A DNA stretch of 36,399 nucleotides from Armatimonadota bacterium (lineage in GTDB: Bacteria > Armatimonadota > Zipacnadia > UBA1398 > JAKPQA01), in the NCBI GenBank assembly GCA_029547025.1, contig JAKPQA010000119.1, forward strand, positions 1 through 36,399, read 5' to 3'. The translations under genes were made by a program, and so were the position numbers. Shown piece after piece: positions 11,200 to 21,561 of the stretch (position 1 is the first letter of the stretch; each line of letters starts with the position of its first letter). Below the pieces are notes generated by a model that saw only the letters and a program-made list of their open reading frames with translations, was not told the origin of the DNA and made no database searches.

Positions 11200-12264
11200 A
11201 TGAGGCTACTGGGGTACCCACTCGCCGAGTTGGAAGCGCTCTTGCGGGGCTGGGGTGAACCCGCGTATCGCGCACGGCAGCTTTTTGAATGGTTGCACCG
11301 ACACAATGAACTGCGGTTCAGCTGCATGACGAGTCTGCCGGGGCCGCTGCGGGCACGGCTCGAGGCCGACTTCGGCACGGATCGCCCCACCGTGCTCGAC
11401 CACACGGGCGACGACGATGCCCGCAAGCTTCTCATCGGCCTCGCCGACGGTGAGCGCGTCGAGAGTGTCCTCATGGGGAGGCCGTGGGGCCAGGCCGCGT
11501 GCGTATCCAGTCAGGTGGGCTGCCCGGTGGGCTGCGTGTTCTGCGCTTCCGGCCGCGATGGGCTCGCCCGGAACCTCGCTGCCGGCGAGATCGTCGGCCA
11601 GCTCAGCATTCTGAGGGCAATGGCCGGCCCCATTCGCCGTGTGGTGTTCATGGGCATGGGAGAGCCGCTACTCAACCTAGAGGAGAGCCTGACGGCGGCC
11701 CGAATCATTACGGACAGGAATGGGTGGGCGCTCCCAACGCGCAACCTGACGTTCTCGACCATCGGCATTGTTCGTGGCATCCGGGCCCTTGCCGGGAGCG
11801 GCGATCGGTTCAGACTTGCTCTGTCCCTTCACGCGGCCGATGATACGCTTCGGCGGGAGTTGGTTCCGCGGTGGTCGGAGCCGCTGCGAGACGTGCTGCG
11901 GGCTGGCACCGAGTACGCCGAGGCCGTTGGACGACGCCTGACGGTGGCCTATGTGCTGTTGGGCGGCGTGAACGACTCGACGCTTGATGCACGGAGTCTC
12001 GCGGCTCTGGTGGGCCCCGCCCGTGCGCTGGTGAACGTTATTCCGTTCAATCCAGTTCCGGGCACGTCTTTTGAGCGGCCGACTCCGGCGCGTGTCGCAA
12101 AGTTCGTGGCGTGCCTCCACGAGGCAGGCATCCGCGCCAGCGCTCGCCGAAGCGTGGGGCTGGCTTCCGAGGCCGCGTGCGGCCAGCTCCGCCGGCGAGC
12201 AGCCCGGTGCGCTGAGGCCGATGACCGGTGTACCGACGCTCAGACGAAGGAGGACGATCGGTGA
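11200..12264 (+). CDS. rlmN: 23S rRNA (adenine-2503-C2)-methyltransferase RlmN
   Basis: This radical-SAM enzyme methylates A2503 of 23S rRNA and A37 of some tRNAs. The 354-residue product has the radical-SAM cluster CPVGCVFC (C108, C112, C115), the upstream Cys in CVSSQVGC (C101), the MGMGEPLLN motif (151-159), the LSLHA motif (208-212), the IPFNPVPG motif, and the methyl-carrying Cys (C327) in EAACGQL. The segment before that Cys reads RRSVGLAS instead of the usual RxxxGDDI, a moderate departure from the consensus. The C-terminal tail is short and charged. Its stop overlaps the next start as GTGA (12261-12264), so the downstream unknown gene is translationally coupled. The enzyme call is firm. 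Confidence 0.95.
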   Translation: MRLLGYPLAELEALLRGWGEPAYRARQLFEWLHRHNELRFSCMTSLPGPLRARLEADFGTDRPTVLDHTGDDDARKLLIGLADGERVESVLMGRPWGQAACVSSQVGCPVGCVFCASGRDGLARNLAAGEIVGQLSILRAMAGPIRRVVFMGMGEPLLNLEESLTAARIITDRNGWALPTRNLTFSTIGIVRGIRALAGSGDRFRLALSLHAADDTLRRELVPRWSEPLRDVLRAGTEYAEAVGRRLTVAYVLLGGVNDSTLDARSLAALVGPARALVNVIPFNPVPGTSFERPTPARVAKFVACLHEAGIRASARRSVGLASEAACGQLRRRAARCAEADDRCTDAQTKEDDR

Positions 12265-12809
12265 CGGAGATCGTCACGGCCCCGGACCCCCCGCCTCAGG
12301 GGGACTGGCAAGCCCAGGTCGATGGCTTCATCCACAAGCTGCGGACCATCGTGCTCAGCTACCAGGATCCGAAAGCGAGCTCTGAGGTCGGCGACGAGCA
12401 GAGCGTGCTGCACGGCAACATCCGGTTCGAGGTGTTCCCGACCGACTCGGGCCGGAACGTGTGCCTGATCTACGAGACGCCCAATGGCTCGACCAACCAG
12501 ATCATGATCTCCTGCTCGAATGAGCGGTGTCGGTTCGCCATCCCGAGCATCAACGCCGAGGGCGAGATCGAGGTCGCCTCCGTCGAGGAGGCGCTCCTCC
12601 GGGTGCAGGAGCACATCGACGACATCCCCCGGCAGCGACGGGATCGCCTCCGGGACTACATCGACTCATGGATCGAAGGTGGTCAGCGGCTGGGGGACAT
12701 CGTCGAGGCACTCAACAGCATGATCCAGCAGGAGATGAAGGGCGGACGGATCACTTACCGTGAGCTGTCCGAGGCCTGCCGGTACGCGGTGGATCGCCTG
12801 GGTATGTAG
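12261..12809 (+). CDS. Unknown 182-residue protein, translationally coupled to rlmN
   Basis: The GTG start at 12261 overlaps the rlmN stop (GTGA) and lies 6 bases after GAAGGAGGA (12246-12254), a very strong ribosome binding site. The product is soluble and acidic, without a signal peptide. An N-terminal alpha/beta part (about residues 15-100) contains RFEVFPTDSGRNVCLIYETP and two Cys in ISCSNERCRF, which could be a metal pair or structural. The C-terminal half (about 105-182) is helical and charged (EEALLRVQEHIDDIPRQRRD, then a region rich in Glu, Tyr and Arg). I do not recognise the family. Tight coupling to rlmN suggests a role near translation or simply shared expression. Confidence 0.75.
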   Translation: MTEIVTAPDPPPQGDWQAQVDGFIHKLRTIVLSYQDPKASSEVGDEQSVLHGNIRFEVFPTDSGRNVCLIYETPNGSTNQIMISCSNERCRFAIPSINAEGEIEVASVEEALLRVQEHIDDIPRQRRDRLRDYIDSWIEGGQRLGDIVEALNSMIQQEMKGGRITYRELSEACRYAVDRLGM

Positions 12810-12917
12810 CCGGTCTGCCCCGCCCTGGCGGATGCCGTGTCCGTCGGCCGATGGGATGTGGTGCCGTCGTGTCGCTCCGAATCCGCTCTGGCCTCACTCT
12901 GGCCGAGGGGATGTCTT

Positions 12918-13499
12918 GTGGCCGGTAAGGACGCGGAGCTGGTTCGTCGCACTCTGGGCGGGGACTTAAGCGCTTTCGATGAGCTGGTCAGGCGGAACGA
13001 ACGCCGCGTGGTGAGCTTGGCCTACCGTCTAACGGGCGATCGGGATCTCTCCCATGACCTGGCGCAGGAGGCCTTCGTCTCGGCCTACCGCAACCTACGC
13101 AAGTTCCGCGGAGCCTCGGCCTTTTCCACCTGGCTATACCGAATTACCTACAACGTGTGCATCGACGAGATGCATCGGCGCGGCCGAGCCGCCGAACGCA
13201 GTATCGATTCCTTCTACGGCGGCGATGGTACCGCTGCCCTGGAGATCCCCGACACCGGGGATACGCCGGAGGAAGCCGCCACGCGTTCCGAGCGGACCGA
13301 GGCCGTGCGACAAGCCGTGGCGCGGCTTCCGGAACACTATCGCGAGGTGCTCGTGCTGTACGACATCCAGGGCATACCATATGAGGAGATCGCGGGTCTG
13401 CTCGGGTGCCCGCTTGGGACCATCAAATCACGGATCAACAGGGCCCGCATGGCTCTCCTGGACGCCTTGGGGCCGGATGTGGAACTCTTCGCCAAGTAG
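12918..13499 (+). CDS. ECF-type RNA polymerase sigma factor 1
   Basis: The 193-residue product has the two-domain ECF layout. Region 2 covers about residues 8-85, with DLAQEAFVSAYRNLRKFRG and FSTWLYRITYNVCID. Region 4 covers about 130-185, with LPEHYREVLVLYDIQGIPYE, a helix-turn-helix and GTIKSRINRAR. It should direct RNA polymerase to a specific promoter set when released from its anti-sigma factor, encoded 47 bases downstream. GTG 12918 is preferred over longer starts because GAGGGG (12905-12910) is 7 bases upstream and the product then begins with AGKDAELVRRTLGGD, as usual for the family. Autoregulation of this operon is likely but no promoter pair could be defined. Confidence 0.93.
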   Translation: MAGKDAELVRRTLGGDLSAFDELVRRNERRVVSLAYRLTGDRDLSHDLAQEAFVSAYRNLRKFRGASAFSTWLYRITYNVCIDEMHRRGRAAERSIDSFYGGDGTAALEIPDTGDTPEEAATRSERTEAVRQAVARLPEHYREVLVLYDIQGIPYEEIAGLLGCPLGTIKSRINRARMALLDALGPDVELFAK

Positions 13500-13546
13500 G
13501 GGGGTCCAAACGGTGAGGATGGAGCGGCCGGAGGGAGGTGGCCACA

Positions 13547-14689
13547 GTGGAGTGCGGTGACTGCACTGAGCGGTTTGCCGACTGGCTCGACGGTAGCCTG
13601 GACGGCGAGCAGACGCGCCGGATGGCGGTTCATCTGGAGCGGTGCCCAGCGTGCCGCCTCCGCTGGGCGCAGTACCAGGGCCTCGTCGAGACGCTTCGTG
13701 CCCCGATCACGGTGGAAGTGCGCCCTGGCTTCGCCGACCAGGTGGTCGCGCGCGTCTCCTCCCATCGGTGGGGCGAACCACGACGTGGCCTGTCTGCTCT
13801 CGTTATCGCCCATGGCCGCCTGGCCGCCGCCGCCGCGGTGATCGTGGTTGGTCTGGCCGCCGGCTTACACCTCTCTCACCGCCCGTCCGGCCGACCACTG
13901 GACCGGCCCCTTGCGGTTGCGACCGGCACCGCCGAGCTCCCGGCCCCGCCCCCCGACGGGACCGCTGGACCCGTCGAGCCCAGCACGCCGCTCGATCGTA
14001 TCGTGCGCTCCTCCTCGTCCACCGCGGGCAATGGGCGGAGCCCGTCGCCCTCGCCCGAGACGGTCGCGCCGCAGGCGCGGACGGCGCCCTTACCACCCGC
14101 GAACAGAGATACCGGTGACCCGCTACGGCACCCGGTGGCTCCGACCGAGGTCGCCCCGTCCCCCGGCAGCGTGGCCCCACCGCCGACGCCCTCCCCCTCG
14201 CTCTCTGCACCCGACGCGCAGCCCCGGGATAGAAGTGACTCCGCAGCCGAACGCAGGCGAGCGGCCATGAACCTCATCGGCGGCTCAGAAGGCATGTATA
14301 CCAGCTTCAGTACGGAGAGTATTGAGAGTGCCCGGGCGCGTCAGATGATCCGGGAGAACCCCTACAGCAACGCAGCGCCAGAGAAGTGGAGTGACCCGAG
14401 CCGGACTCATTACAACTTCGAGTTTCGCGGCACACGCCTCTCGACAGCGCTCGACTCGGTTGCGAAGACGGGCAACATCCGGATCATCACCCGCGGACCC
14501 ATGAACGGCAACGTCACCCTGAACATTCAGAACGCTCGCCCCGAGGTTGCGCTCGAGCGCATCGCGAGCATTGCCAATCTGCGCGTCAGCCAACGCGGCT
14601 CGACATACGTGGTGGAGCAAGAGCCGGTGCGAGGCGAGAGTTCGGACTCGCACGCAACTCGTCCGGATGACACTCGTCCTCCCCAATAG
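13547..14689 (+). CDS. Zinc-finger anti-sigma factor with C-terminal STN-like domain
   Basis: The 380-residue product is a single-pass membrane protein. The N terminus has an anti-sigma zinc finger: C3, C6 and the HxxxCxxC motif at H29, C33 and C36 (HLERCPAC). A hydrophobic segment at about 91-107 is the membrane span. A Pro/Ser/Thr/Ala-rich linker follows at about 110-240. The last part, about residues 288-360, looks like the STN (secretin and TonB short N-terminal) fold: NFEFRGTRLSTALDSVAKTG, then GNVTLNIQNARPEVALERI, then STYVVEQEP. The zinc finger should hold the sigma factor encoded just upstream while the STN-like domain lies in the periplasm. In FecR-type systems the STN domain belongs to the transporter, not the anti-sigma factor, so this arrangement is unusual. 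The start at GTG 13547 is set by GGAGGGAGG (13530-13538); GTG 13538 would overlap it. Confidence 0.82.
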   Translation: MECGDCTERFADWLDGSLDGEQTRRMAVHLERCPACRLRWAQYQGLVETLRAPITVEVRPGFADQVVARVSSHRWGEPRRGLSALVIAHGRLAAAAAVIVVGLAAGLHLSHRPSGRPLDRPLAVATGTAELPAPPPDGTAGPVEPSTPLDRIVRSSSSTAGNGRSPSPSPETVAPQARTAPLPPANRDTGDPLRHPVAPTEVAPSPGSVAPPPTPSPSLSAPDAQPRDRSDSAAERRRAAMNLIGGSEGMYTSFSTESIESARARQMIRENPYSNAAPEKWSDPSRTHYNFEFRGTRLSTALDSVAKTGNIRIITRGPMNGNVTLNIQNARPEVALERIASIANLRVSQRGSTYVVEQEPVRGESSDSHATRPDDTRPPQ

Positions 14690-15346: not shown

Positions 15347-16489
15347 ATGGAGTCGGACCGTAGGAAACTCCTGCTATCGGTCGGGGGATTCGGCGTCCTG
15401 ATGGCCATGACCGTCGGCATGGCCCTGTGGTCGTACTACGCTCGTCCCCCTGGGTCGAAGGCGCGGAAGAAGGGCGCCCGCGATGTCGAGGTGCGAGTCG
15501 AGTCCGCCTCCTTCCAGGTATGGGCTCACGACGAGAGGGACGAGCGTCTCATCGCCGAAGTGAAGGCCAAGGTCGTGCAAATGTCCAAGGACCGAAGCCT
15601 CATCCAGGCCAAAGAGATAGACCCGGTTGTCCTCTACCGCGACGGCAAGGTGTTCATGGAAGGCCGAGCTGCGGCTGCCCAGTACGATCAGGGCACAAGC
15701 AGCAAGGAACTTACCCTCTTTGGTGGAGTGGTGCTTAAGGAGAAGCAGGGCGGCTTCACGATGCGGGCCGAGGAGCTCCACCACATTGGCCGCGACAATC
15801 GTGTGTTCTCCGACCAGCCGGTGACGTTCGAGTTCCCTGACGCAACCATGCGCACGCCGATGATCGCCCTCTATGTCGAGGACAACCGGCTGGAGTGTAT
15901 CCGCCAGGTGGTGCTGACCACCCGGCGAGGTGCGACATTGTCGGCCCGATCGGCTCAGCTTGACGTGGCCTCATACGTCCTCAAGATGGCCGGCAATGTC
16001 GTCGCGAACGTCACGGTGGGCGAGGCCCAGGAGCTGGCTGGCAAACGCTCGAAGGCGCCCGCCGCATCGGCCAAGACTCCGAGCAAGACCTCGAACCCGG
16101 ATAGCGCCCTCGACAAGATGACGCGATTCCGCCTGAAGACCCACCACTTCGAGTATAGTCTCAAGGATGGCACCGGCTCCTGCCCAAGCCCGATCATCAT
16201 TCGCACGGCAGACGGCTCGGCTCGGGCCGATCAGGCGCAGATCACCCAGGATCTCGTGGTACTCCAGGGGAACGTCCGCGCCCTCATGACCATGGGCGAT
16301 GAGCCCGGGCGGACGGACATCGCCACAGATGTCATCCAATACCGGCCGGGCGTAGATGAGTTCCTGGCCCCGGGGCAGGTCACTGTCACCACAGCGGCGT
16401 CGGTCTTCCAGTGCGGCTCCGCCAAGGCGAGGCCCTCGGAGGGCCGCATCTGGATGACCGGTGGGGTCAGAGGCGCCATCGATCGGTGA
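15347..16489 (+). CDS. lptC: LptC-like lipopolysaccharide export protein, extended
   Basis: LptC is a membrane-anchored periplasmic protein that passes lipopolysaccharide from the LptBFG transporter to LptA. This 380-residue protein has an N-terminal anchor (about residues 8-31), then an LptC/OstA-like beta-jellyroll: VRVESASFQVWAHDERD, then LIQAKEIDPVVLY, FTMRAEELHHIGRDNRVF and the strand pattern TLSARSAQLDVASYVLKMAG. A second copy of similar strands follows an Ala/Lys-rich linker near residues 225-260 (ARADQAQITQDLVVLQGNV). LptC in Escherichia coli is about 190 residues, so this one is about twice as long and probably carries two jellyroll units. The start ATG 15347 has only a moderate ribosome binding site. 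It is followed 38 bases later by the LptA-like gene. Confidence 0.8.
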   Translation: MESDRRKLLLSVGGFGVLMAMTVGMALWSYYARPPGSKARKKGARDVEVRVESASFQVWAHDERDERLIAEVKAKVVQMSKDRSLIQAKEIDPVVLYRDGKVFMEGRAAAAQYDQGTSSKELTLFGGVVLKEKQGGFTMRAEELHHIGRDNRVFSDQPVTFEFPDATMRTPMIALYVEDNRLECIRQVVLTTRRGATLSARSAQLDVASYVLKMAGNVVANVTVGEAQELAGKRSKAPAASAKTPSKTSNPDSALDKMTRFRLKTHHFEYSLKDGTGSCPSPIIIRTADGSARADQAQITQDLVVLQGNVRALMTMGDEPGRTDIATDVIQYRPGVDEFLAPGQVTVTTAASVFQCGSAKARPSEGRIWMTGGVRGAIDR

Positions 16490-16527
16490 CGAACCTTGCC
16501 ACTGGACCGAATGGAGGGATGACCGCC

Positions 16528-17463
16528 ATGGGACGCACCCGCTTGAGCCTCCGGCGTTGGGGCCTGGCACTCGTCGTCGCCGCAGCCTGGGTGGGGGTGT
16601 GCCTGGCTCAGGCCCCCCCGCCGGCGCCGGTGCCCGCGACACCGGCCGCCCCACCCGCTCCTGGGAATGGTGAGGAGCCCAAGAAGGTCTACGTCGAGGC
16701 CGAACAGATCATCGCCACGTCCGAAGGCAAGGGTGTCTGGATCATTGACGGCAATGTGGTGATGACTCAGGGCGACACCAAGATGTACTGCAGCCACGCC
16801 GTCTGGGACCGGAACCAGCACACGGCGCAGCTCACGAACAACGTGCGTATTGTCCCCAAAGGCCACGAGATCACGGCCGACAAGTGTGATGTCGATCTCG
16901 ACGAGGAGATCGCCGTGCTGACGAGCACTCCGCCTCGCCGCGTTCACATCATCTCGAAGCGCCAGTACGAGGGCGACCAACCCTTCGAGGAGCTCGACGA
17001 GTCCACGCGCAAGTACGAGTACGGTCGTTGGGATACCGAGTGTGACAAGGCGCAGTACGACTATGGCGACGACAACGGGTTCGCCGAGGGTAATGTCGTC
17101 AGCCGCTCGGAGGACGGGCAATACACTTTCTACGCGTCATTGGTGCGATATGAGAAGAAAGACGGCAACGAGATCATCACGATCCCGGACAACCCCCGTG
17201 TCGAGACGGCTGACGACGAGTCCTACACTTGCAAGTCGGCGGTCATCACGACGGACAAGGACGACAAGCGCCGGGTGGTGCTGACGCAGCCGACGGCTCA
17301 CATTCTGGTCAACAAGAACAAGAAGGGCAGCGGCACACCCGAGCAGGCCGAGAGCGGCGCCGCGGCCACGCCGCCCTCGAAGTCGCCGCCGCCCGGCGGC
17401 GGCCAGCCAGCGCCCCCGCCTCCCACCGATCGCGGCGGGGCGAGCGAGGGCGGGCAGGGGTAG
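16528..17463 (+). CDS. lptA: LptA/OstA-like periplasmic lipopolysaccharide bridge protein
   Basis: The 311-residue product has a signal peptide ending near CLAQAPPP, a Pro/Ala linker, then an OstA-fold jellyroll (KVYVEAEQIIATSEGKGVWI, then GNVVMTQGDTKMYCSHAVWD, then NNVRIVPKGHEITADKCDVD). Such proteins line up head to tail to carry lipopolysaccharide across the periplasm. A second repeat-like half, about residues 165-260, has AQYDYGDDNGFAEGNVVSR and SYTCKSAVITTDKDDKRRVV. The C terminus is Pro/Gly-rich and probably disordered. The ATG at 16528 is preferred to the in-frame ATG 16519 because GGAGGG (16513-16518) touches the latter. No LptB ATPase gene is in the window. Confidence 0.82.
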   Translation: MGRTRLSLRRWGLALVVAAAWVGVCLAQAPPPAPVPATPAAPPAPGNGEEPKKVYVEAEQIIATSEGKGVWIIDGNVVMTQGDTKMYCSHAVWDRNQHTAQLTNNVRIVPKGHEITADKCDVDLDEEIAVLTSTPPRRVHIISKRQYEGDQPFEELDESTRKYEYGRWDTECDKAQYDYGDDNGFAEGNVVSRSEDGQYTFYASLVRYEKKDGNEIITIPDNPRVETADDESYTCKSAVITTDKDDKRRVVLTQPTAHILVNKNKKGSGTPEQAESGAAATPPSKSPPPGGGQPAPPPPTDRGGASEGGQG

Positions 17464-17610: not shown

Positions 17611-17725
17611 CCCGCGGCGAATGAAAGCGCTAATGATATCGATGCCCCCTGCAAGCCTTCCGCGCTCCCGAGCGTTCTAGACCTGTGGATGGAACCGCCG
17701 ATTGGCGGCGGGAGGCGACGAGTTC

Positions 17726-18289
17726 ATGGGACGTGCCCAGGTGGCCATGGTGCAGACGCCACAGTCACTGGTCTCGCGTTTCGCTGAGGGCGACACCGCC
17801 GCGTTCGACGAGGTCGTGCGGCTGTATGGTCGCGACGTGTACCGTGTGGCGCGCCGGATGACTGATTGCGCCGATGATGCCGACGACGTGGTGCAGGAGA
17901 CCTTCATCCGGGCATTCCAGCGGTTGGGTGAGGTGGACGGCGACGCCAGTGTGAAACGCTGGCTCCTGACGATCACCATCAACCTGTGTATTGACCGCCG
18001 CCGCCGCCGCCGGCTTCCGGTCAGTGAGCTCTCTTTCGACCCTCCGGCAGAACGCTCTGCGGCGGACCATGAACTCCTCAACCGAGAGCTCGGCCAACAC
18101 CTGCATGCGGCCCTCTCGAAGCTCTCAGGCCAGCAGCGGGCGTGCTTCGTCCTGCACGAGATCGAGGGGTTGAAGGTTGCGGAGATCGCCCAGATCGTCG
18201 GGTGCTCCGACGGGGCGGTGAAGTGCTATCTCCATCGTGCCCGGGACCGGTTGCAGAAGCAGTTGGCCCCATACCTACTGGCGCCATGA
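17726..18289 (+). CDS. ECF-type RNA polymerase sigma factor 2
   Basis: The 187-residue product has region 2 at about residues 15-95 (VSRFAEGDTAAFDEVVRLYG, DDVVQETFIRAFQRL, VKRWLLTITINLCIDR) and region 4 at about 125-180 (LSGQQRACFVLHEIEGLKV, GCSDGAVKCYLHRARDRL). A run of six Arg codons from a CCG/CGC repeat marks the junction after region 2. It is distinct in sequence from sigma factor 1 upstream. The start ATG 17726 follows GGGAGG (17710-17715) at 10 bases; ATG 17747 is also possible. The cognate anti-sigma gene starts 55 bases after the sigma stop, with a tiny open frame between them. It probably controls its own operon and the large secreted PDZ protein. Confidence 0.92.
   Translation: MGRAQVAMVQTPQSLVSRFAEGDTAAFDEVVRLYGRDVYRVARRMTDCADDADDVVQETFIRAFQRLGEVDGDASVKRWLLTITINLCIDRRRRRRLPVSELSFDPPAERSAADHELLNRELGQHLHAALSKLSGQQRACFVLHEIEGLKVAEIAQIVGCSDGAVKCYLHRARDRLQKQLAPYLLAP
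17995..18012 (+). repeat. (CCG)6 trinucleotide run in ECF sigma factor 2
   Basis: Six CCG triplets in the plus strand, read in the CGC phase, encode the six-arginine run just after region 2. It may be prone to slippage in triplets, which would change the number of Arg residues without shifting the frame. Confidence 0.8.
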
Positions 18290-18348
18290 GGTGTCGGAAG
18301 CGCCACGCTGACGACGCGGTGGCGACGCGAGGGGTGATACGGCGATGA
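18286..18348 (+). CDS. Possible 20-codon bridging reading frame between sigma and anti-sigma genes
   Basis: ATG 18286 overlaps the sigma factor 2 stop (ATGA, 18286-18289). The frame encodes MRCRKRHADDAVATRGVIRR and stops at TGA 18346-18348, which overlaps the anti-sigma start (ATGA, 18345-18348). A ribosome could thus pass from sigma through this mini-frame to the anti-sigma gene. The mini-frame opens with ATGAGGTGTCGG, much like the anti-sigma opening ATGAGGTGCCGT, so a small local duplication of the start region is possible. Chance cannot be excluded. The product is basic and has no recognisable domain. Confidence 0.3.
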   Translation: MRCRKRHADDAVATRGVIRR

Positions 18349-19199
18349 GGTGCCGTCAAGCAAGGATGCTCATCCACGAGACGTTGGACGAGCGAACGGG
18401 AGCGTGGCCTCCCGGTCTCGAGTCCCACCTGAGGGAATGCCCCTCCTGTCAGCGGCTCGCGTCGCGCCTGGTGGCGCTGTCGGCGCTCGCGCGGCAAGCT
18501 TCGGCGGAAGACCCGAGCGACGCCCATCTGCGCGACATCGCTCGCCGGGCAGCGGCTGGGGCCCGATGGGCACCCCAGGCGCTGCAGCCGCGGCCTCTGC
18601 GGGTCTCGTTGGCCGGGGCCCTGTCATGGTCGCTTCTGCTGATCGCCTGCGGGGCCCTTGCCGGGCGGCTGCTGGTCCCTCCCTCGACCCACGGCACGGT
18701 GTTGGCTCCGGTCGGTGCGTCTGGGCCGGTCGCGTTTGCCCCGACCGCCCGGCCGGTGACCGATCCGCCAGTCGACTTCGATCTCGGGATGCCCGGCGTA
18801 CCCGCGGCCTCCGGAGTCGCGGCCATGGCAGTCGCCAAGCCCAGCCCGGTGGCGACCCCGGTGGGTACGGAACGCCCCGATAGCGGCCTCGCTTTCGTGG
18901 TCCGTTCGGGCGCGCGCTCGGCCGTGACGCCCCGGCGCGCGGGTTCGCCCGCGGTTCGGAAGCCGGCGCCGCTGCCGATGCCGCGTCCCAAGCTGACGGT
19001 TCGCATCACCCAGCCGGATGGGGTCACCGGGAGCCGCACGATCATCATCCAGAGCGATGAGGGCGAGATACTTGGTCCATATTCGCCTGGCGTAGTGCCC
19101 GTCCCTGATGTAATGCCGCGCGAGGGGCCCACTCCCACACCGAAGCCTGAGGGCCGTCCCGAGTACCTCACGGCCCTGTACACTCTCGGAGGTGCGTGA
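18345..19199 (+). CDS. Zinc-finger anti-sigma factor 2, membrane-anchored
   Basis: The 284-residue product has an N-terminal anti-sigma zinc finger with C3 and HxxxCxxC (H28, C32, C35; SHLRECPSC). The membrane span is at about 87-107 (LSWSLLLIACGALAG), followed by a long periplasmic Pro/Ala/Val-rich region. A short strand-like motif KLTVRITQPDGVTGSRTIII (about residues 220-240) is the only ordered-looking part outside the membrane. It should hold sigma factor 2 at the membrane and release it on an envelope signal. ATG 18345 follows GAGGGGTG (18329-18336). The ribosome binding site of the next gene lies within its last codons, so the two are likely co-expressed. Confidence 0.82.
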   Translation: MRCRQARMLIHETLDERTGAWPPGLESHLRECPSCQRLASRLVALSALARQASAEDPSDAHLRDIARRAAAGARWAPQALQPRPLRVSLAGALSWSLLLIACGALAGRLLVPPSTHGTVLAPVGASGPVAFAPTARPVTDPPVDFDLGMPGVPAASGVAAMAVAKPSPVATPVGTERPDSGLAFVVRSGARSAVTPRRAGSPAVRKPAPLPMPRPKLTVRITQPDGVTGSRTIIIQSDEGEILGPYSPGVVPVPDVMPREGPTPTPKPEGRPEYLTALYTLGGA

Positions 19200-19203
19200 G
19201 AGC

Positions 19204-21561
19204 ATGGACCGACTCAGGTGGGCGCGCTCGATGGGCGCGGCGGCGGTGGCCCTGCTGCTGGTGGGTACGGTGACACCCACCCACGCGCAGGGGGCGGTTG
19301 CCGAGCCGTCACAAGCGGTGAAGCCATCATATCGCGTTGCGGGACGTACCGAAGTCACGGTCCGCGTGTATGACCTGTCGGGTGTCGATGCGGCGTCGAG
19401 GGCCCAGTGGCGGCGAACGGCCACCCCGAATGCACAAGCCGTCGCCATCGAGGCCGCCGATCCCGACGGGTCCATCGAACGCGCGCTCTTGGGACTTCAG
19501 GGCGTCCGGCTCGTGGGCCAGGGCCAGGTGGTCTGCGCCGGCAACCGAAAGACCGCCATCGAGGTGCCCGACCTCCGCTATGGCCGCGGCGCGGCCTTCG
19601 TGAAGCGCGATGGCGCCGGGCAGCTTGTTGTCGCACACCAGGACATTGACCCCGGCGTCGTGCTCGAGGTGTGGCACGGTCCCGCTTCGAGCGGCGAGAG
19701 CCCGCAGGCCGATTCCCTGATCCTTCAACTCCGGGCCCGCGTGCCCGCCGGCCGGTCGCTTCCAGGGGATCCGGCCGTACCTCCTCAGCTGGGCCCACCC
19801 CAGGTGTTTGAGGCGGAGACACGGGCACAACTCTCCCTGGGCGCCATCCCACAGCGGATGGTGTACTGTGCCGAGCTGCTTCCTGACGGCAACGGCCGGT
19901 CGTTCGTGACTGTCGTGGAGGCCCGCCCCTCGGCGGGCACCCTTGGCGCACCGGGGGCAGTGGTGGTGTCGGTGCCCAGTCCCGAGCCTCCGGACCTGGC
20001 GCGAGCCATCGTGGACGAACTCGCCGCACTCTCGGCGTACGACGCTGCCAAGTACCTTCCGGAAGCCTCGGCACAGCGTTTCGTCGATCTGGCGACCCGC
20101 AGGGGCCCCCTGCCCCACACTGCGGCCGCCGAGCTGAGTCGGCTGGCCGATGCGGTTCGCGACCGACTCAGGCGGACTGAGCAGCTTCAGGTGGCCCAGC
20201 TCCTCGCGCGCACCGAGGACAACCAACGACAGATCGCGGAACTCGAGGCACAGACGGCGGCGAATCGGGCGCGTTTTGAGGACGACGTGCGTGCGGCTCG
20301 CGACCGGCTGGCCGCCCTTCAGGCCCGGCTTAGTGAACAGACGACGGGGACCGCCACGGCGGGCGCTGCTCCGGGGCTGGGCTCTCCCTCGGGGACGAAT
20401 GCCGCACTCGCGGCGGAGGGGGCCGGCGGGACGGTGGCCCAGGCGAACACCGCGCGTTTCACCCGGATCTACACCGTCCATGCGGGTGATCAGCCGGAGA
20501 AGAAGGTGCGGGTCGATGTCGAGCTGGGGCCGAACGGTCAACAGGCACCGCCCCGGGTGAGCGTCTGGGACCCCGCCGCCAACGACTGGGTCGAGGTGGA
20601 CCCCAACAACCCCGGTGAGTTTGCCGACTTCGTGGAGAAGGCTCTTCAGGATGCCCAGGGCGCGCAGGTGTTCTTGGCACCGGGAGGCGGCGCGCTCAAC
20701 ATGCAGGTGGGCGGTCCCGCCCAGGGGGGCATCGATGTCCTCCGCGCGCCACAGGTCGTCGCGGGAAATCAGGGCCCGGCATTCGAGCTCGGTCGCATTA
20801 CGGCGCTAGTCGAGCAGGCACAGAAGCTTGCCAAGAGGGTCCAGGACGGTCTGGCCGCCGCGGCGCCTGATGTGAAGACCGCCGCCGAGGGTGCTGCAGA
20901 AGTCTCTCAGATACTCGAGCAGATCAACCAGGCCGTGGCCAAGCTGACCAATCAGACCGCCGGGTGGGGCCCCGGTGGCCTCATCCTGCCTCCCGGGCTG
21001 GGTCCACGGTTCGGCCAGGCTTGGGCGGCAGGGATACCTCGGGTCATCGTCGAGGGCAAGCCCAGGCAGTTCACGGGTATCGGCGCCATTGTGACGAGCG
21101 TGGAGCCTGCGGACGGCGGCAAGCCGCAGATGGTGATCCGGCAAGTCATGCCGAACAGCCCAGCTGAGGAGGCGGGGCTCACCGAGGGCGATGTGATCGT
21201 GGCGGTTGATGGCCAGGAAGTGCCCGCGGAGTTGGCAGAGGGCGTCAAGCGTATCGTCGGGCCCGAGGGTTCGGTGGTGAAGCTCACAGTCCGTCGCGAG
21301 GGCCACGAGGGACTCCTGGAGTTCGAGGTGACGCGCCAGAAGGTGACATTCGATCCGGCCACACTCAAGCAGTTCGACGTTCCCGAGCCCGGCGAGCCAG
21401 CCGGGCCGGCGCCCGGTGCCCCAGGTGCGCCTCCCGCAGCCCCTGAGCCACCTCCGGCACCTCCCGCGCCTGCGGCTCCCGGACGGCCCGAGGCCAAAGC
21501 AGACTGGTCGGTTGGCCTCCCGAAGTCGCCGGACCGATGCCCTACCCCCATGCTGGTCTAG
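19204..21561 (+). CDS. Large secreted coiled-coil and PDZ domain protein
   Basis: The 785-residue product starts at ATG 19204, 9 bases after GGAGGTG (19188-19194); the earlier GTG 19192 overlaps that site. A signal peptide ends near PTHAQGA. Residues about 30-300 form an unrecognised, strand-rich region. A coiled coil follows at about 320-380 (EQLQVAQLLARTEDNQRQIA). A PDZ domain is at about 622-720 (GIGAIVTSV, PNSPAEEAGLTEGDVIVAVD, VVKLTVRREG). The C-terminal tail is Pro/Ala-rich. PDZ domains bind exposed C-terminal peptides; here there is no Ser-protease triad, so it is more likely a binding or scaffold protein than a DegP-type enzyme. Its place directly after the anti-sigma gene suggests it is a sensor or target of that regulon. 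Confidence 0.75.
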   Translation: MDRLRWARSMGAAAVALLLVGTVTPTHAQGAVAEPSQAVKPSYRVAGRTEVTVRVYDLSGVDAASRAQWRRTATPNAQAVAIEAADPDGSIERALLGLQGVRLVGQGQVVCAGNRKTAIEVPDLRYGRGAAFVKRDGAGQLVVAHQDIDPGVVLEVWHGPASSGESPQADSLILQLRARVPAGRSLPGDPAVPPQLGPPQVFEAETRAQLSLGAIPQRMVYCAELLPDGNGRSFVTVVEARPSAGTLGAPGAVVVSVPSPEPPDLARAIVDELAALSAYDAAKYLPEASAQRFVDLATRRGPLPHTAAAELSRLADAVRDRLRRTEQLQVAQLLARTEDNQRQIAELEAQTAANRARFEDDVRAARDRLAALQARLSEQTTGTATAGAAPGLGSPSGTNAALAAEGAGGTVAQANTARFTRIYTVHAGDQPEKKVRVDVELGPNGQQAPPRVSVWDPAANDWVEVDPNNPGEFADFVEKALQDAQGAQVFLAPGGGALNMQVGGPAQGGIDVLRAPQVVAGNQGPAFELGRITALVEQAQKLAKRVQDGLAAAAPDVKTAAEGAAEVSQILEQINQAVAKLTNQTAGWGPGGLILPPGLGPRFGQAWAAGIPRVIVEGKPRQFTGIGAIVTSVEPADGGKPQMVIRQVMPNSPAEEAGLTEGDVIVAVDGQEVPAELAEGVKRIVGPEGSVVKLTVRREGHEGLLEFEVTRQKVTFDPATLKQFDVPEPGEPAGPAPGAPGAPPAAPEPPPAPPAPAAPGRPEAKADWSVGLPKSPDRCPTPMLV

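Follow-up and report, generated by a model that had tools for sequence, protein, structure and literature searches.

Closest described systems

Anti-sigma factors of the PupR/FoxR/FecR type (PDB 6OVM/6OVK), for which Pfam holds the families FecR and FecR_C, consist of a cytoplasmic anti-sigma domain, one membrane span and a periplasmic terminal STN domain, and have an ECF sigma factor as partner. Contact between PupR and PupB, and between FoxR and FoxA, depends on the STN-type subdomain on the anti-sigma side, which meets an STN-type signalling domain in the receptor (PMC7186176, PMC11637429). In the FoxR-FoxA case STN binds STN, and this contact shields the anti-sigma factor from proteolysis; secretins for their part use N0 domains to bind partners in the inner membrane (PMC11637429). 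The same fold is found in the N0/STN domain of the type IV pilus secretin PilQ (PDB 4AR0), and an STN-like subdomain is present in BDI_1681 of Parabacteroides (PDB 4M0H/4M0N). Zinc-finger anti-sigma factors of the zf-HC2 type (RsiW/RsrA-like) have a zinc-finger domain, an adjacent ECF gene and a single span.

The locus described here lies in a window of 36,399 nucleotides, the whole stretch of DNA that was analysed, from a genome (G000) of Candidatus Zipacnadia (candidate division WS1, Armatimonadota). Compared with PupR, FoxR and FecR, its anti-sigma factor has a zf-HC2 head, an Ig-like domain (in relatives) or a plain linker instead of the FecR/CJM subdomain, and the N0 domain of PilQ as its nearest profile, and the system has no TonB-dependent transducer but a class-level link to a pilus secretin cluster. 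It is in these features that the locus is new, and the literature searched yielded no zf-HC2 anti-sigma factor described as bearing an STN/N0 domain. The original prediction had set the locus apart from FecI-FecR-FecA signalling by the STN domain standing on the anti-sigma side; that contrast fails because PupR and FoxR had already been published with a C-terminal STN (PMC7186176, PMC11637429). Relative to the RsiW/RsrA-like factors the window protein adds a C-terminal sensor domain of the secretin N0 type, and unlike in PilQ this domain ends a membrane-anchored regulator with no secretin pore domain. Identity to BDI_1681 is approximately 16%, and a two-domain model made for L065, a relative, can be aligned to BDI_1681 only at a large rmsd; the beta domain in that model is Ig/macroglobulin-like.

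Organization of the sigma/anti-sigma locus

All features of the locus are on the forward strand. The anti-sigma ORF (13538-14689) is one uninterrupted frame, with no frameshift to separate the C-terminal part, and encodes 383 aa if GTG 13538 is the start or 380 aa if it is GTG 13547. The latter is preferred, as GGAGGGAGG (13530-13538) precedes it by 8 nt, which places the whole gene for an anti-sigma factor with a C-terminal STN/N0 domain at 13547-14689. A cytoplasmic zf-HC2 zinc-finger anti-sigma domain (13553-13657; C-x2-C ... H-x3-C-x2-C) scores over the cut-off of Pfam PF13490 (E=8e-8) and carries the HxxxCxxC zinc motif; zinc binding and sigma binding are predicted from it. It is followed by a single transmembrane segment at residues 95-113 (13820-13876; Kyte-Doolittle maximum 2.11), no second span being found in the protein by Kyte-Doolittle, and by a Pro/Ala/Ser-rich periplasmic linker (13877-14356) of 159 residues, or about 160, with 18% Pro. 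The STN or secretin N0-like domain occupies 14411-14620, corresponding to residues 22-91 of 95 in the AlphaFold model, and is located by profile matches and Foldseek as well. No FecR (CJM) subdomain was detected, Pfam giving no PF04773 match in the protein. The arrangement originally read from the sequence, of zinc finger, one span, Pro-rich linker and C-terminal STN, thus stands, and it is confirmed that the anti-sigma factor itself bears the STN-type domain.

Directly upstream is an ECF sigma factor gene (12837-13499; Sigma70_r2 2.4e-19, r4_2 6.9e-18), with 38 nt to the anti-sigma ORF start as called; its true start is likely GTG 12918, and from adjacency the two genes are considered cognate. 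It is preceded by the uncharacterised gene X22 (12228-12809), for which neither Pfam nor NCBIfam gave a convincing family, and by a gene at 11200-12264 which we take to be rlmN from recognition of its sequence rather than from a family search. The similarity and order of the rlmN-like gene are shared with L078, the locus of the pair in the closest relative (G001), where both neighbours are conserved.

LptC-like and LptA-like genes (15347-17463; Pfam LptC 9e-15, LptD_N 2e-5) are found downstream. These neighbours are real, as had been noted, but their use as a guide to function did not hold up: L078 has other downstream genes, with no LptC/LptA match, so they tell little on function. A functional link between the pair and LptC/LptA was rejected on this ground, the adjacency being real in G000 and not kept in G001. 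Further downstream in the window (17702-21561) is a second ECF sigma/anti-sigma pair with a weak zf-HC2 domain, followed by a 789-aa PDZ-domain protein.

The C-terminal domain resembles the N0 domain of PilQ

By itself the Pfam STN match at the C-terminus of the window protein is weak (E=0.0077, 16.5 bits, below the gathering cut-off of 28.4), and phmmer against the PDB matched the PilQ N0 domain (4ar0) at 0.0027. A jackknifed profile of 29 relatives, lacking the window sequence, had the anti-sigma ORF as its only match in the six-frame window (3e-10), and the ORF was still found at 2.1e-9 when the nearest relative was also removed. The ORF was again the sole match for profiles of secretin STN domains and of small secretin-operon STN domains containing zero anti-sigma rows (6.5e-8 and 3.9e-9), with the mild circularity that the secretin STN segments were picked by an anti-sigma-seeded profile. 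For homology of the window domain to the secretin N0 profile, hhalign gave a probability of 98.8-99.2. When a 30-sequence profile of the anti-sigma STN domains was compared with the PDB, the best match was PilQ N0 (4ar0, 1.9e-8), followed by further PilQ proteins; GspD and HasR were matched weakly, and PupR and FecR were absent from this match list.

The AlphaFold comparison that had been suggested for the C-terminal domain gave an STN/N0 fold, with a core of pLDDT 92-96 arranged as beta-alpha-beta-beta-alpha-beta-beta. The best Foldseek matches were the Parabacteroides putative anti-sigma factor BDI_1681, PilQ N0, EscC, GspD N0, PilQ from a pilus-machine model and PupR, with prob 1.00 for 4m0h, 4ar0, 3gr5, 4jtm and 6ovk. 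A chance similarity, or a tail without function, would agree with the Pfam score under the gathering cut-off, but is hardly credible given that the domain is kept in 29 divergent relatives, that the fold is confident and that the jackknifed profile reaches E=3e-10. Conservation, jackknifed profile and fold together refute chance, and the C-terminal STN match of the window ORF is not accidental.

Distribution and orthology of the pair

A first scan of the genome collection with the window protein returned no relatives. A profile search of 291 genomes of the phylum found STN-type domains in 283; none of the 20 leading candidates (18 outside the class) had a zinc finger, these being secretins or other periplasmic STN proteins. 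Within the class sample of 46 genomes, C-terminal STN anti-sigma factors were found in most, and the combination of zinc-finger motif and C-terminal STN in at least 29, so that the order of zinc finger, span and STN sought among homologues occurs across the class. In 29/29 of these proteins the main span is found around residue 100 and the STN is C-terminal. Relatives outside the taxonomic order of the window genome carry an additional domain before the STN, an Ig/macroglobulin-like beta-sandwich in the model of L065, and the linker of the window protein and of G001, which belongs to the same taxonomic order, occupies its place.

Phylogenetic analysis of 58 ECF sigma factors places the window factor, that of G001 and 26 other class members in one clade (support 99/98), uniting the window factor with the pil-linked ones. 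The clade leaves out the other sampled factors of G000 and G001, among them the second ECF factor of the window. These sequence comparisons indicate that the sigma/anti-sigma pair is orthologous class-wide.

Candidate partners: TonB-dependent receptors and secretins

No TonB plug domain was found in the window genome at E<=0.001 (the assembly lacks approximately 4%), and it is present in 7/46 and absent from 39/46 class genomes. A TonB transducer for the pair is therefore very unlikely, and as a partner it is largely refuted for the window genome. This bears on whether the protein is a cell-surface-signalling regulator of the FecR/PupR type answering such a transducer. The STN subdomain does end PupR and FoxR, Foldseek does return BDI_1681 and PupR, and Pfam FecR_C is matched weakly by some members (4/20 at E<=0.5). 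However, with a zf-HC2 head, no detected FecR domain, a middle domain that in the relatives is Ig-like and not CJM, and the plug missing here and in most of the class, we consider this reading very improbable. FecR domains occur in 45/46 class genomes, and FecR-type regulators may accordingly operate elsewhere in them. The window genome, in which no TonB plug was found, itself encodes a FecR-domain protein (a 325-aa frame) just after an ECF sigma gene, at G000:C354:12770-14067.

With TonB receptors set aside, the envelope proteins found to bear an STN were the secretins and their small STN neighbours. The window genome has seven secretin domains. Two of its secretins are adjacent on contig C42 and three are on C361.

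Linkage to a pilus-type secretin cluster in most families

In 20 genomes of seven families (f3-f9), most of the families, the pair lies downstream of the secretin in a cluster with the order pilM-pilN-pilO-(pilP position)-small STN protein-secretin-aroC/aroKB-PASTA protein-ECF-anti-sigma, on the same strand and with short gaps. In some genomes the cluster is incomplete, with genes missing, interrupted or cut by the contig end. Pfam confirms PilM, the secretin with its N-terminal STN and the PASTA domains, and the best NCBIfam match of the secretin is the type IV pilus PilQ, below cut-off; the protein at the pilP position has no recognisable family. The small protein whose gene separates the pilP position from that of the secretin, a secreted-looking STN protein of about 270 aa without a secretin pore (L065:5585-6403 and equivalents), is conserved class-wide at this place.

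In the taxonomic order of the window genome, represented by G000 and G001, the pair instead follows rlmN and the uncharacterised gene, outside the pil cluster, and the pil-secretin-aro cluster persists without it (G000:C262 and G001:C58), so the linkage can be lost. The residence of the pair in the secretin cluster of most relatives suggests that these bacteria may monitor their pilus pore itself and not an iron receptor. The original prediction had named a secretin among the possible partners and held iron uptake to be less likely; the seven secretins, the missing plug and the orthologous pairs in the pilMNO-secretin cluster all speak for a secretin-related, non-TonB role over iron uptake.

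Possible mechanism

The reading to which we give even chances is that of an ECF/anti-sigma switch whose sensor is the secretin-type STN (N0) domain, most likely docking with a type IV pilus-type secretin complex. The zf-HC2 domain would tether the sigma factor to the inner membrane and the long linker would extend the N0 sensor into the periplasm, where it most likely docks with the N0 of a secretin, with the adjoining small STN protein, or with a PilO/PilP-like partner of N0 domains. Assembly or disturbance of the secretin complex would then free the anti-sigma factor or expose it to two-step proteolysis, and its degradation would release the sigma factor for its putative target genes. The model follows the example of PupR and FoxR, in that a lost or altered contact of the N0-like domain would set the sigma factor free. 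That such signalling is class-wide in Candidatus Zipacnadia, the state of the pilus-type secretin gating the ECF factor through the N0-bearing anti-sigma factor and no TonB receptor taking part, is plausible but slightly short of probable.

As the strongest alternative we see a general envelope-stress switch, in which the STN domain merely shields from the site-1 protease or oligomerises and the input is cell-wall or outer-membrane damage, the PASTA protein possibly being a co-sensor. In 22 genomes (among L062-L100) the sigma gene is immediately preceded by a gene for a PASTA-domain protein, so cell-wall stress could be the input; stress regulation is a common role of zf-HC2 anti-sigma factors, and the LptC/LptA genes downstream in the window genome would fit as well. 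Against this, the domain is specifically PilQ-N0-like and C-terminal in 29/29 members, and G001, the nearest relative, has neither PASTA nor LptC/LptA genes beside the pair. We regard the envelope-stress switch as unlikely, though worth serious consideration.

The N0 domain could also imitate that of the secretin and vie with it for a PilP/PilO-like partner in the inner membrane, the sigma activity then reporting unfilled pilus machines and not contact with the secretin. Such competition would agree with the known binding of secretin N0 domains to inner-membrane partners and with the gene at the pilP position in the cluster, but the product of that gene belongs to no recognisable family, and we think this rather improbable.

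Should docking with the secretin complex be real, cell-surface signalling would extend beyond TonB receptors, pilus secretins would feed back on gene expression through a sigma factor of their own, and the STN domain would serve anti-sigma factors as a reusable plug for listening to outer-membrane machines. The analysis offers a concrete candidate partner for a sigma factor without assigned role in an uncultured lineage.

As a point against the secretin reading, the ECF promoter motif was not enriched upstream of the pil and cluster genes except upstream of the anti-sigma gene, and the enrichment there is judged a coding artefact since the scanned region is mostly 3′ coding sequence of the sigma gene. 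Another ECF sigma factor with a zf-HC2 anti-sigma factor, the latter without STN, is located at L082:16829-18258 (G000:C115) upstream of an operon running from pilM to a secretin of 1196 aa.
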